Origin: Gemmatimonadota bacterium
GTDB lineage: Bacteria > Gemmatimonadota > Gemmatimonadetes > Gemmatimonadales > Gemmatimonadaceae
Assembly: GCA_003134685.1 (NCBI GenBank)
Contig: PLCA01000006.1
Location: 1 to 64,000 of the forward strand
DNA length: 64,000 nt
Direction: 5' to 3'
Translations under genes and position numbers: made by a program
In this document: positions 3,095-57,768 of the stretch, piece after piece
Position numbering within the stretch: position 1 is the first letter of the stretch
Layout: each line of letters opens with the position of its first letter
Notes under the pieces: model-generated
Databases searched by the model: none
Seen by the model: the letters and a program-made list of their open reading frames with translations, nothing else
What the model was told of the DNA's origin: nothing

Positions 3095-4393
3095 ATGGCT
3101 ACATTCGGGAACGGGCGCCGCGTCGCGATAGTTGCGGGCGTGCGGACGCCATTTGCAAAAGCTGGAACCGCGTTCAAGACAATTTCCGCGATCGACCTCG
3201 GCAAGTTGTGCGTAGCGGAATTGTTGCAGCGCACGAATCTGGACGGGAAAGAGGTGCAGGCGTTGGTGTTCGGCACAGTGGTTCCATCAGTGGTCGAGCC
3301 GAACATAGCCCGTGAAGTCTCGCTGCTGCCGCTTTTGCCGAAGGGCGTCCAGGCCTACACCGTGAGCAGAGCGTGCGCGTCGGCGAATCAGGCGATCACC
3401 GACGCCGCTGACCAGATCGCTCTCGGTCACCTCGATGTCGCGATCGCAGGCGGTTCGGAATCTCTGTCCAACATTCCGATTCTTCACTCGCAAAGGTTCG
3501 CCGAGACGCTCCTTCTCGCGTCGAAAGCGAAATCGCTGCCGGCGCGGCTCCGGATTCTCGCGCGCCTGCGTCCGAAAGATTTCATTCCCATCACGCCGGC
3601 GATCGCCGAACCTACGACCGGCGAGACGATGGGACAGTCGGCGGAAAAGATGGCCAAGCTCAACGCGATTGCGCGCGAAGAGCAGGACCACTTCGCGCTG
3701 CGCTCACACCGGCTCGCGTCCGCCGGCACCGCCGATGGTAGATTGACGGCTGAGATCATGCCGGTCTATGTGCCGCCCAAGTTCGAAAGCGTGCTGACGT
3801 CGGACAACGGCATTCGCGAAGACACGAGCTACGAGCAGCTGGCGGCGCTCAAGCCGGTTTTCGACAGAAAGTACGGCAGCGTGACCGCGGGCAATTCGTC
3901 GCCACTCACCGATGGCGGCGCCTGCGTTCTGCTCATGAGCGAGGAGAAGGCGAAAGCGCTCGGCTATGCTCCGCTCGGGATAATCAAGTCGTACGCGTAT
4001 GCGGCGCTCGATCCGGGAGAGCAGCTACTCCAGGCGCCGGTGCTGGCCGCACCGGTCGCGCTCAAACGCGCAGGCCTCTCGTTGAAGGACATCGACCTGG
4101 TGGAGATGCACGAAGCGTTCGCCGCGCAGGTGTTGTCGAATCTCAAGGGATTCGAATCGAAGTGGTGGGCCGAGAGAGCGGGTTTCTCACAGCCGGTCGG
4201 CGAGGTAGACAGAGCGAAGCTAAACGTCATGGGCGGCTCGATCGCCATTGGCCATCCATTCGGAGCGACCGGTGCGCGAATCACGACGACGCTTCTGAAC
4301 GAGCTGCAGCGGCGCGGCGGGCAGTTTGGGCTGATGACCGTGTGCACGGCGGGCGGTATGGGCTTCGCGATGGTGGTCGAGAGGACACAATGA
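3095..4393 (+). CDS. fadI: Acetyl-CoA C-acyltransferase (FadI-type thiolase)
   Basis: A 432-residue thiolase that cleaves 3-ketoacyl-CoA in beta-oxidation. The nucleophilic Cys94 is in SRACASANQA, the base His in GGSIAIGHPFGATGARI and the second Cys in CTAGGMG. The length and the extended N-terminal half match FadI rather than the shorter FadA. Its stop codon overlaps the fadJ start by ATGA (4390-4393), so the two halves of the beta-oxidation complex are translationally coupled. This is the first gene of a six-gene chain running to 10673. Confidence 0.93.
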   Translation: MATFGNGRRVAIVAGVRTPFAKAGTAFKTISAIDLGKLCVAELLQRTNLDGKEVQALVFGTVVPSVVEPNIAREVSLLPLLPKGVQAYTVSRACASANQAITDAADQIALGHLDVAIAGGSESLSNIPILHSQRFAETLLLASKAKSLPARLRILARLRPKDFIPITPAIAEPTTGETMGQSAEKMAKLNAIAREEQDHFALRSHRLASAGTADGRLTAEIMPVYVPPKFESVLTSDNGIREDTSYEQLAALKPVFDRKYGSVTAGNSSPLTDGGACVLLMSEEKAKALGYAPLGIIKSYAYAALDPGEQLLQAPVLAAPVALKRAGLSLKDIDLVEMHEAFAAQVLSNLKGFESKWWAERAGFSQPVGEVDRAKLNVMGGSIAIGHPFGATGARITTTLLNELQRRGGQFGLMTVCTAGGMGFAMVVERTQ

Positions 4394-40738: not shown

Positions 40739-40845
40739 CAGTGCCTATCCTTTCGCCGGGTTAACTGGTTAGATAGCATATGATGAAAGCACGCTACGCA
40801 GCTGGTCCGAATCTCCCGAACGTATTCATCCTGTTCCAGCGTAAA

Positions 40846-43200
40846 ATGAAAGGACTACTCCTCATGGGCGCCGCTGCAAGCGCGCTCATCGTCGCTTGCG
40901 CATCGCCGTCAACGACCCCGTCGACAATTCCTTCGACCGAGATCCCGCGGCCCAGTCCGCAGCCCGTTCTTCCTCCGTTTCAGATGGACACGAGCCGGTC
41001 CGTGGATCGTGTTCCACCCTTTCAGGAGACGCCTCTGATCGTCTGGGGCCCGCCGCCTGATGGGGTCACGCATCCGGAGCGAGTGCGGAAGTACGATCTT
41101 CAGCATCAAGTGACGATCGTCCGCTTCGACTGGCCGCGTCAGGCAGTGGTTGGAACGACAACGCTGACAATCGCCGGACTCCGGGGCGCCGCGCCACTCT
41201 CGAATGTCGTCATCGACGCCGGCGACATGACGTTCAAATCCGTCGCCACTGGCACCACAGCGCTGAAATACGATTACGATGGACGCGCGCTCACGGTGCA
41301 CCTCGCGACGCGCCTGGCCTCGGGGCAAACGACAGCCATTACCATCGAATACGATGGCGCCAATCGCTCCAAGGGCGCCTACTTCAGACCCGCCAAGCAC
41401 ATCGTCTGGACTCAAGGTGAGACCGAGGACAATCACTACTGGGTTCCCACCTACGATTTCCCAAACGACAAGACGACCTGGGAGTTCTACATCTGGACCG
41501 CCAAGGGCGAGCGCGCTCTCTCCAACGGCCGTCTCGCCGGATCGCGCGCGGTGGGCGACAGCATCGAATGGCACTGGGTCCTCGATAAGCCCGCGTCGAC
41601 GTACCTGATGACGACGGTCGTCGGCAACTACACGGTGCTCCAGGACAAGGCCTGGCACAACGTGCCGATCGGCTACTGGACGTACCCCGATTCGGTCGAC
41701 GCCGCCTGGCGCGGATTCGCCAAGACTCCTCAGGCCGTCGATCTGTTCTCCCGCAAGACCGGCGTTCCGTATCCGTGGTCCAAGTACGACCAGATCGTCA
41801 TTCCTGAATTCCAGTACGGCGGAATGGAGAATGTCACCGCGACATCGCAGAACGACGCCGAGATTCTCCACCCCGCATGGTCGGAGCCGCAGGCCAACTC
41901 CGCCGGTCTCATGGCCCACGAGCTCGGGCACCAATGGTACGGAGATCTCCTGACAACAAGCGACTGGGGAGATGTCTGGCTCAACGAGGGATTCGCAACG
42001 TTCATGGAGCAGGTCTTTCGCGAGGAGGATCTCGGCGTCGACGAAGGCGCGCTCGACCGCCTCGGCGCCCAAGAGCAGACGATCGATGCGGACCGCCGTA
42101 CCAGACGGCCGATTGTATGGAGCAAGTGGGTCAACGATCCCATCGAAGTGTTCTTCAGCGGTCACATCTATCCGAAGGGCGCGACCATTCTTCAGATGCT
42201 TCGCCACCAGCTCGGCGACGATCTGTTCTGGAAAGCGATGAACCATTACACCACGGCGCACGCCTACGGCAACGTCGTCACCGACGATCTGCGCAAGGCG
42301 TTCGAGGAAACGACCGGCAAGGATTACAAGGCGTTTTTCGACCAATGGGTGTACGGCGCCGGCTTTCCGGTGTTTCAGGTCTCGTCACTGTATGACCGCG
42401 CCGCCCGCCGGCTGGTGATCAGCGCGAAAGAGATACAGCCTCGCGACAGCCTCACCGGATTCTTCGATGTCGACGCTGATGTGGAGGTCCGTACCGACAG
42501 CGGCGTCGTCCGCTTCGTGGTGCCGGTTCGGAATGGAACTGGAGAAGCCGGGACGAATCTCAAGGCTCCACCCCGCTCGATTCGCTGGGACAAGGGAAAC
42601 TGGATTCTCGATCTCACCGATTTCCCGCGTTCCACCGCGATGCTGCGCTACCAGCTCGTGTACGACGACGACGTGCTCGGCAGAATCGAAGCGGTCGATG
42701 TGCTGGCGCAGCGGCCAGGTGACCAGGCGGCGCTCAACGCTCTGATCGGCTCGACGCGCAACGATAAATTCTGGGCTGTGCGTGCTCGCGCGGTAGATGC
42801 GATCGGTGTCTGGGGAAGCGATCCGACCCGGGCCACGGTCGCGCCGATGCGGAGCGTCACCAATGCTCTCATGGCCGCGACTCGCGATCCGGATAGTCGC
42901 GTGCGCCAGGAAGCCGTGACCGCGATTGGTCGGCTGACGCTGAGCGGAACTACCGCCAGAGACGTGAACATCCGCCTACGTGAAATCGCGCGCACGGATC
43001 CGAGTCTCTTCGTCCGCGGTGCGGCCCTCGCGTCGGACATCCTCCTCGAGAAGAATGCGGCGCTTCCGCTCGCCAAGCAGATGATGGCGTCGGAGGTCTG
43101 GCAGAACGTGATCCGTACGCCGGCAATCAATGCGCTGAAAGCCGTCGGGACGCCGGAAGCGCTTCAACTAGTCCAGCAGTACGCACCGACGGCTCAATAG
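40846..43200 (+). CDS. M1-family zinc aminopeptidase lipoprotein with HEAT-like C-terminus
   Basis: I choose ATG 40846 (784 residues), which gives a proper lipoprotein signal ending in ALIVAC; the frame opens at 40780. The metalloprotease site is HELGHQWYGD, with zinc ligands His358 and His362 and Glu381 in NEGFATF, and the substrate-binding GGMEN exopeptidase motif lies just upstream. An Ala/Arg-rich helical-repeat region (about 600-780) closes the protein. It trims N-terminal residues from peptides outside the inner membrane. The selW-like gene starts 24 bases after its stop. Confidence 0.92.
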   Translation: MKGLLLMGAAASALIVACASPSTTPSTIPSTEIPRPSPQPVLPPFQMDTSRSVDRVPPFQETPLIVWGPPPDGVTHPERVRKYDLQHQVTIVRFDWPRQAVVGTTTLTIAGLRGAAPLSNVVIDAGDMTFKSVATGTTALKYDYDGRALTVHLATRLASGQTTAITIEYDGANRSKGAYFRPAKHIVWTQGETEDNHYWVPTYDFPNDKTTWEFYIWTAKGERALSNGRLAGSRAVGDSIEWHWVLDKPASTYLMTTVVGNYTVLQDKAWHNVPIGYWTYPDSVDAAWRGFAKTPQAVDLFSRKTGVPYPWSKYDQIVIPEFQYGGMENVTATSQNDAEILHPAWSEPQANSAGLMAHELGHQWYGDLLTTSDWGDVWLNEGFATFMEQVFREEDLGVDEGALDRLGAQEQTIDADRRTRRPIVWSKWVNDPIEVFFSGHIYPKGATILQMLRHQLGDDLFWKAMNHYTTAHAYGNVVTDDLRKAFEETTGKDYKAFFDQWVYGAGFPVFQVSSLYDRAARRLVISAKEIQPRDSLTGFFDVDADVEVRTDSGVVRFVVPVRNGTGEAGTNLKAPPRSIRWDKGNWILDLTDFPRSTAMLRYQLVYDDDVLGRIEAVDVLAQRPGDQAALNALIGSTRNDKFWAVRARAVDAIGVWGSDPTRATVAPMRSVTNALMAATRDPDSRVRQEAVTAIGRLTLSGTTARDVNIRLREIARTDPSLFVRGAALASDILLEKNAALPLAKQMMASEVWQNVIRTPAINALKAVGTPEALQLVQQYAPTAQ

Positions 43201-43224: not shown

Positions 43225-43452
43225 ATGAAGATCAGCATCGAGTACTGCGTAGTTTGAAACTACCAGCCACGAGCCGCCAGTTTGGCGGCTGAGATTCGTC
43301 AGCGCTTTCCCGACGCGGAGCTGCAGATGATTCCGTCGAGGGGCGGCAGGTTCGAGATTATCGTAGATGGAATTCCAGTTTACGAGAAATCCAAGACAGG
43401 GCGGCACGCCAAGCCGGGTGAAGTCCTATCACTTATAGAAGAGAAATCGTGA
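43225..43452 (+). CDS. SelW-like (Rdx family) thioredoxin-fold selenoprotein with in-frame TGA (Sec11)
   Basis: Reading ATG 43225 through the TGA at 43255-43257 to TGA 43450-43452 gives 75 residues. The beginning MKISIEYCVV-U-NYQPRAASL and the later GGRFEIIVDGIPVYEKSKTGR are the two blocks that define SelW/Rdx proteins: a beta-strand, the CxxU/CxxC redox motif (here Cys8 and position 11), a helix, then the GG-F-V-DG strand. The TGA sits exactly at the redox position where family members have Cys or Sec. A perfect hairpin follows (see 43272-43290). The gene lies 24 bases after the M1 peptidase and 4 bases before pfkA. It is very likely a selenoprotein; a stop mutation is the alternative. Confidence 0.85.
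43272..43290 (+). promoter_or_regulatory. Candidate bacterial SECIS hairpin
   Basis: AGCCGCCA and TGGCGGCT form a perfect 8-bp stem around the 3-base loop GTT. The loop begins 22 bases after the TGA codon, within the spacing known for bacterial SECIS elements (about 16-37), and its first base is G, as the consensus asks. The hairpin is inside the coding region, as in fdhF-type bacterial SECIS. Confidence 0.75.
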
Positions 43453-43456
43453 AATC

Positions 43457-44536
43457 ATGAGGATCGCGTTGTCCACCGGTGGAGGTGACGCTCCCGGGCT
43501 CAACGCGGTAATTCGCGCCGCCGTGCTTTCGGCGGTGAACCGCGGCTGGGAAGTGCTCGGCATCAAGAAGGGCTACGCCGGGCTGCTCGGCGAAGAAGAA
43601 GTCATTCCGATGACTGCCGCGACCGTGCGGGGCATTGCGCACCTGGGTGGGACGATCCTCCGCACCACCAATCGCGGGAATCCATTCAGCTATCCGATCG
43701 CGCAACCCGATGGGACGTTCGTCGACAAGGACCGGTCCGGAGAGCTGATCGAAAACTCGCGGAAGCTGGGCATCGACGCCGTAATTTCCATCGGCGGGGA
43801 TGGATCGATGAGCATCGCCCACCAGCTTTGCCAGCTTGGAATGAAGATTGTCTGCGTTCCCAAGACCATCGACAACGATGTGGCTGGTACGATCACGACT
43901 TTCGGATTCGACACCGCGGTCAACACGGCTCTGGAAGCGATCGACAAGCTGCACACCACGGCCGAGAGCCACGACCGCGTCATCGTTCTCGAGGTGATGG
44001 GCCGCAACGCTGGATTCATCGCGCTGCATGCCGGGCTCGCCGGTACGGCCGACGTGATTCTCATCCCCGAAATCCCCTATGACATCGAAAAAGTTTGCGA
44101 GAAGATCGCAGCGCGCGACCGCTCGGGCAGGCACTTCTCGATCGTCGTGATCGCGGAAGGAGCGTTCCCCAAGGGTGAAGCTCCTGCGATCCGTGGCAAG
44201 TCCATGCCGGGTCAGGCGGTCAGGATCGGCGGCGTCGCCGAGCGGCTCGCCGACGAGATCGAGACGCGCACCAAGAAAGAAACGCGCTCCCTGATTCTTG
44301 GACATCTTCAGCGCGGCGGCCAGCCGACCGGCTACGACCGATTGCTGGCGGTGAGGTTTGGCGGCGCGGCGGTGCGCGCGGTCGCCGACGAGAAATGGGA
44401 CCACATGATCGCGCTTCAGTCGCCGCACATCGTTTCCATTCCGCTCGCCGACGTGCTCAAAGTGCCGAAGCGCGTCGAGATTGATCACGACACGGTCTTG
44501 ACGGCACGCGCAACCGGCATTTCTTTCGGGGATTAG
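43457..44536 (+). CDS. pfkA: 6-phosphofructokinase
   Basis: A 359-residue enzyme of glycolysis that phosphorylates fructose 6-phosphate. It shows STGGGDAPGLNAVIR, the phosphoryl-donor motif GGDGS, the catalytic PKTIDND, the substrate site MGRNAGFIAL and LGHLQRGGQPTGYDR. Known rules: Gly in GGDG(S) goes with ATP use, Asp there with pyrophosphate; Lys in PKTIDND is usual in PPi enzymes and in actinobacterial ATP enzymes. The Gly/Lys combination points to an ATP-dependent enzyme of the second type. It starts 4 bases after the selW-like gene. Confidence 0.92.
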   Translation: MRIALSTGGGDAPGLNAVIRAAVLSAVNRGWEVLGIKKGYAGLLGEEEVIPMTAATVRGIAHLGGTILRTTNRGNPFSYPIAQPDGTFVDKDRSGELIENSRKLGIDAVISIGGDGSMSIAHQLCQLGMKIVCVPKTIDNDVAGTITTFGFDTAVNTALEAIDKLHTTAESHDRVIVLEVMGRNAGFIALHAGLAGTADVILIPEIPYDIEKVCEKIAARDRSGRHFSIVVIAEGAFPKGEAPAIRGKSMPGQAVRIGGVAERLADEIETRTKKETRSLILGHLQRGGQPTGYDRLLAVRFGGAAVRAVADEKWDHMIALQSPHIVSIPLADVLKVPKRVEIDHDTVLTARATGISFGD

Positions 44537-57609: not shown

Positions 57610-57768
57610 TACTGGCTCGGTATAGTACAAGAGTGGCTTCTTGGTAAGCGTTGGACAAAAAAACTGCTAACTGAAGACTACCTGCCGCGGGCTGTCGGCG
57701 GGCCGGCTGGCGGCTGCGGGCTTTGTTCACTTCGCAATCAACGGCCGGCAAGCGGCAGAAAACTAAGA

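Follow-up and report, generated by a model that had tools for sequence, protein, structure and literature searches.

A SelW-like gene of a Gemmatimonadaceae bacterium in which an in-frame UGA is very probably read as selenocysteine

Does the TGA that interrupts a short reading frame between an M1 peptidase gene and pfkA, in a window of 64,000 nucleotides (the whole stretch of Gemmatimonadota DNA that was analysed), end a gene, or does it specify the redox residue of a selenoprotein? The frame, 43225-43452 on the + strand, is intact. Its sole internal TGA is codon 11 (43255-43257), its stop is the TGA at 43450-43452, and with TGA translated as U it encodes 75 residues, MKISIEYCVV-U-NYQPRAASLAAEIRQRFPDAELQMIPSRGGRFEIIVDGIPVYEKSKTGRHAKPGEVLSLIEEKS-stop, with the motif C8-V-V-U11, of which Cys8 (codon 43246-43248, +) forms the first half of a CxxU redox pair. 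Translation bears out every detail of the frame, interrupted at codon 11, that a sequence-only reading had described, and the intervals given there are right as well, with 24 bases from the stop of the M1 peptidase (43200) and 4 bases to the ATG of pfkA (43457). That reading had called the locus an overlooked gene for a probable selenoprotein; the probable selenoprotein stands, whereas "overlooked" is more than can be shown, given that the NCBI model NF041051 already matches the protein above its cut-off. The best explanation, and almost certainly the right one, is a functional SelW-like selenoprotein gene in which UGA codon 11 is decoded as selenocysteine (Sec).

Curated family models place the product in the SelT/SelW/SelH (Rdx) family. 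Pfam Rdx (PF10262) gives 66.5-74.7 bits (cut-off 22.6), NCBIfam TIGR02174 gives 64 bits (cut-off 34.2), and NF041051, which describes bacterial SelW-like (seleno)proteins, scores 92.6 bits, just over its cut-off of 88. In dozens of genomes, moreover, the frame is conserved before as well as after the TGA; together with the Rdx score, this puts the match far beyond chance. An AlphaFold2 model built from the alignment (pLDDT 96.5) predicts a thioredoxin-like beta-alpha-beta-beta-beta-alpha fold in which C8 and U11 sit between strand 1 (E2-8) and helix 1 (H14-27), the motif position of Rdx proteins. The best match among solved structures is the SelW-related protein 2fa8 (TM 0.89, 1.2 A, 40% identity), with whose CxxC the CxxU aligns. 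Judged by family and motif only, the product would most likely be a cytosolic thiol/selenol oxidoreductase working through its Cys-x-x-Sec pair, and it might reduce protein or glutathione disulfide, or peroxide. Four genomes of the family (loci L103-L106) carry a second, clearly different CxxC Rdx protein (e.g. EITYCPRCRWLLRAAWM), beside the Sec form or in its stead.

In the standard code TGA is a stop, and this is the sole point that speaks for a decayed SelW/Rdx pseudogene, or a sequencing error, with the TGA as true terminator. The homologues argue otherwise. The peptide patterns of the homologue scan left out codon 11 and therefore did not select for TGA; a TGA stands at that codon, after C-x-x, in 80/80 of the best homologues in a species-level genome collection, drawn from Gemmatimonadota, Fidelibacterota (Marinimicrobia), Desulfobacterota, Planctomycetota and other phyla, and of 148 genomes drawn from the family of the source organism, 92 contain an Rdx gene interrupted by exactly one TGA. 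An in-frame UGA is thus conserved at the redox Cys position throughout the 80 nearest homologues, a comparison of the kind that the sequence-only reading proposed, and Cys takes its place in a genome discussed below (G110); decay of the gene, which the same reading had named as counter-evidence, was seen in no relative. Among public genomes, the protein and its neighbours have their nearest relatives in metagenome-assembled genomes of Gemmatimonadaceae or Gemmatimonadota; in the closest of these, identity is 95% for the SelW-like protein and 97-99% for M1 peptidase and PfkA. Downstream of the TGA the gene is under strong purifying selection, with a Nei-Gojobori dN/dS of 0.09-0.18 against eight loci of relatives (75-95% identity; two pairs among them are near-identical copies). 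Since both the TGA and the undamaged frame beyond it are conserved, and the TGA moreover tracks selA, the pseudogene reading is already refuted and retains only a vanishing probability.

A selenoprotein gene of bacteria should also carry the signal that recodes its UGA, and here a hairpin with the features of a bacterial SECIS lies at 43272-43290 (+), with a stem of 7 bp, a 5-nt loop (AGUUU, 43279-43283) and 21 nt between UGA and loop. Its minimum free energy is -14.8 kcal/mol (z -3.06); in a 61-nt fold z is only -0.64, and the hairpin forms there unchanged. Published criteria (PMC13188914) call for a loop of 3-9 nt on a stem of 4-16 bp, a spacing of 16-37 nt, an MFE of -7.5 or lower and a G within the first two loop positions in the pattern N-G-[G/U]-N-N; the hairpin falls within all four, its loop G being second. 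Among 59 homologues (54 distinct rows) the stem positions pair in 96.3% of cells, as against 17-59% for slid versions of the stem, and changes on both sides of a pair occur in 32 cells compared with 8.8 in shuffles (0/500). The mean folding energy of the homologue set, -13.5, is likewise lower than that of synonymous recodings (-8.7, sd 0.33) and of codons permuted among sequences within each residue (-11.9, sd 0.18). For the sequence of the window alone, 3.9% of synonymous recodings fold equally well, and it is therefore the evidence at the level of the set that carries the SECIS argument. Within the loop, Ser is encoded by AGT in 36/36 cases, while AGT makes up 7/135 Ser codons (~5%) in the neighbouring long ORFs; Gly is GGT in 18/18, and Leu is always CTG or TTG. 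The loop codons are thus fixed against genomic codon bias, and the constraint, Ser always AGT, provides a clean SECIS signature that is independent of the protein. The SECIS that the sequence-only reading proposed to look for after the TGA is consequently present, and with covariation. A covariance-model search for further SECIS elements returned only the SelW-like gene itself as significant; a segment at 57672-57721 (19.3 bits, E 0.1) is intergenic and was judged to be chance or noise. That segment sits between two ORFs on the - strand that, by eye, resemble thyX and an FAD-linked oxidase.

The hairpin bears equally on the idea that a shorter protein of 56 residues starts at TTG 43282 and that the part upstream is untranslated. 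The ORF 43282-43452 does exist, and its TTG is a possible start, but this codon lies within the SECIS loop, and the resulting protein would be without strand 1 and the CxxU redox motif. Residues 1-10 are conserved as much as the rest of the protein, with no nonsynonymous change in the closest relatives, and M1, I5 and C8 are invariant in 60 aligned homologues. Such a start is very improbable, and the full-length selenoprotein remains the preferred product.

Decoding of this kind requires a dedicated machinery, and all of it was found in the source genome (98.4% complete, 16 contigs): SelA (571.7 bits, contig C3), SelB (340.8 bits, both pieces together, contig C12), SelD in a Cys form (376.7 bits, contig C12) and tRNA-Sec (69 bits with Rfam, anticodon TCA according to ARAGORN), the selC gene for the last adjoining selD about 100 bases after it. 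The absence of selA, selB, selC and selD would have spoken against the claim that the organism decodes UGA as selenocysteine; the machinery is there, and together with the shared CxxU and the covarying SECIS it supports that claim. Across the family, 84 of the 148 genomes have both TGA-Rdx and selA, 8 have the Rdx gene only, 15 have selA only and 41 have neither (Fisher p = 3.5e-16, a value that overstates independence, as the genomes are related). Two of the eight Rdx-only genomes, G002 and G122, keep both selB and tRNA-Sec, and for this reason their missing selA probably falls in an assembly gap; the other six are drafts of 74-82% completeness. The fifteen selA-only genomes (G016, G031, G025, G134 and others) have no match to TGA-Rdx; there, other selenoproteins must be the reason that the Sec machinery persists, unless the Rdx gene lies in an assembly gap. 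A Gemmatimonadaceae lineage would thus employ selenocysteine, SelW being a widespread selenoprotein at the level of the family and one that naive gene callers would truncate at its TGA.

One relative, G110, is assembled in a single contig and has a completeness rating of 100%. It lacks selA and tRNA-Sec and has no SelB match above the cut-off, and its Rdx gene (locus L132, start near 3989) encodes CVGC, with TGC replacing TGA at the same codon. Gene order is the same (DEAD-box helicase, pilin-like, Rdx, pfkA, next genes), and the loop codons are GCG TTG as against AGT/GGT YTG in the Sec forms, the loop constraint being gone. Since the TGA is present in other genomes assigned to that genus, G110 points to Sec-to-Cys replacement upon loss of the machinery. 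In a protein tree the columns are too few to place the Cys form firmly, and it is therefore gene order that carries the argument for orthology. G110 may be regarded as a natural experiment on the exchange of Sec and Cys. It also helps to weigh the possibility that the UGA is read through in some other way, generally or by a near-cognate Trp or Cys tRNA, to give a protein without selenium. On sequence alone this is possible for a fraction of the product. Yet a SECIS with conserved loop and covariation would then be purposeless, the Sec machinery co-occurs with the gene, and Cys appears where the machinery is gone, all of which leaves readthrough without selenium highly unlikely as an account of the locus.

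Sequence evidence of this breadth shows the gene, its family, the machinery, the SECIS and selection for Sec, and from it we infer that Sec is actually incorporated in the source organism. As proposed, SelA would make Sec-tRNA(Sec) using selenophosphate from SelD, and SelB with Sec-tRNA(Sec), directed to the UGA by the hairpin inside the coding sequence 21 nt downstream, would decode codon 11 as selenocysteine. The product would be a thioredoxin-like protein of 75 residues with Cys-x-x-Sec at the loop before helix 1. SelW was also considered as the only selenoprotein of the genome, a notion rejected upon the finding of a peroxiredoxin-like (AhpC/TSA) gene (contig C5:242622-243011, + strand; L164:2123-2512) with one in-frame TGA followed by a hairpin. 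This TGA stands at the apparent peroxidatic position in the context T-K-G-U-T, and TxxU is the motif tabulated for Sec peroxiredoxins (PMC2398784). The gene is thus a probable second selenoprotein of the source genome. A further candidate in that genome, formate dehydrogenase, gave no match above the cut-off and showed no internal stop.

What the protein does may be approached through its neighbours, whose identities are agreed by Pfam and NCBIfam: upstream an M1 family peptidase with HEAT repeats (40780-43200, +; Peptidase_M1, 164.2 bits), which serves as context only, and downstream pfkA for 6-phosphofructokinase (43457-44536, +; PFK, 345.6 bits), likewise context and outside the selenoprotein. 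The M1 peptidase was rejected as a conserved partner, being mostly limited to the closest relatives. By comparison pfkA lies directly 3' of the SelW-like gene in 43 of the 54 distinct Gemmatimonadota loci that could be scored, the Cys form included, while several close relatives keep SelW and do not have pfkA at that place; since SelW persists where this neighbour is missing, it is independent of pfkA. The earlier description of the gene as a functional operon member is plausible to this extent, although the M1 gene at this place is a feature of close relatives, and pfkA adjoins SelW in the majority of relatives but not in every one. The frequent pfkA neighbour is only a hint to the role of SelW. 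That SelW is functionally tied to PfkA, perhaps serving the enzyme, or Gemmatimonadota glycolysis during oxidative stress, as a selenium-dependent thiol switch or repair factor, is a speculative and unlikely reading; if true, it would be the first physiological role for a bacterial SelW. In any event the recurring neighbour offers one testable lead on the substrate of bacterial SelW.

The literature on bacterial SelW-like selenoproteins with CxxU goes back at least to 2005-2008, and in ocean samples they are reported as the most abundant prokaryotic selenoprotein family, with 427 Sec versus 56 Cys forms (PMC1088965, PMC1794560, PMC2398784). Gemmatimonadota are not mentioned in PMC1794560, nor in the selenoprotein reviews and the method paper examined, and a search of the literature on Gemmatimonadota and selenocysteine found no paper with a title on the subject. 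The mammalian (mouse) selenoprotein W, 2npb, shares CxxU and the thioredoxin-like fold with the protein described here, although it is a weaker match (TM 0.69) with weak sequence similarity (E 0.38); the mammalian partner 14-3-3 (PMC8508763) is not assumed for the Gemmatimonadaceae protein. Closer in structure are the Cys SelW-related proteins 2fa8, 2p0g, 2oka, 2obk and 3dex, which share its fold (TM 0.86-0.92, normalised to the query length) at 27-42% identity but carry CxxC in place of CxxU. In Campylobacter jejuni, which belongs to a different phylum, SelW is likewise about 80 residues long with its UGA read as Sec, translation beyond the Sec UGA of Campylobacter SelW is documented by Ribo-seq and proteomics (PMC11955535), and model NF041051 (SelTWH_Campy) matches the Gemmatimonadaceae protein. 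The bacterial SelW-like selenoproteins of Zhang and Gladyshev agree with it in Rdx family, CxxU motif, small size and in-frame bacterial SECIS, whereas the form described here is widespread in a family of Gemmatimonadota and often lies 5' of pfkA. The Gemmatimonadaceae gene is thus a further member of a family known in bacteria, and an unusually clean case of it, in that a relative without the selenium machinery has Cys in place of Sec.
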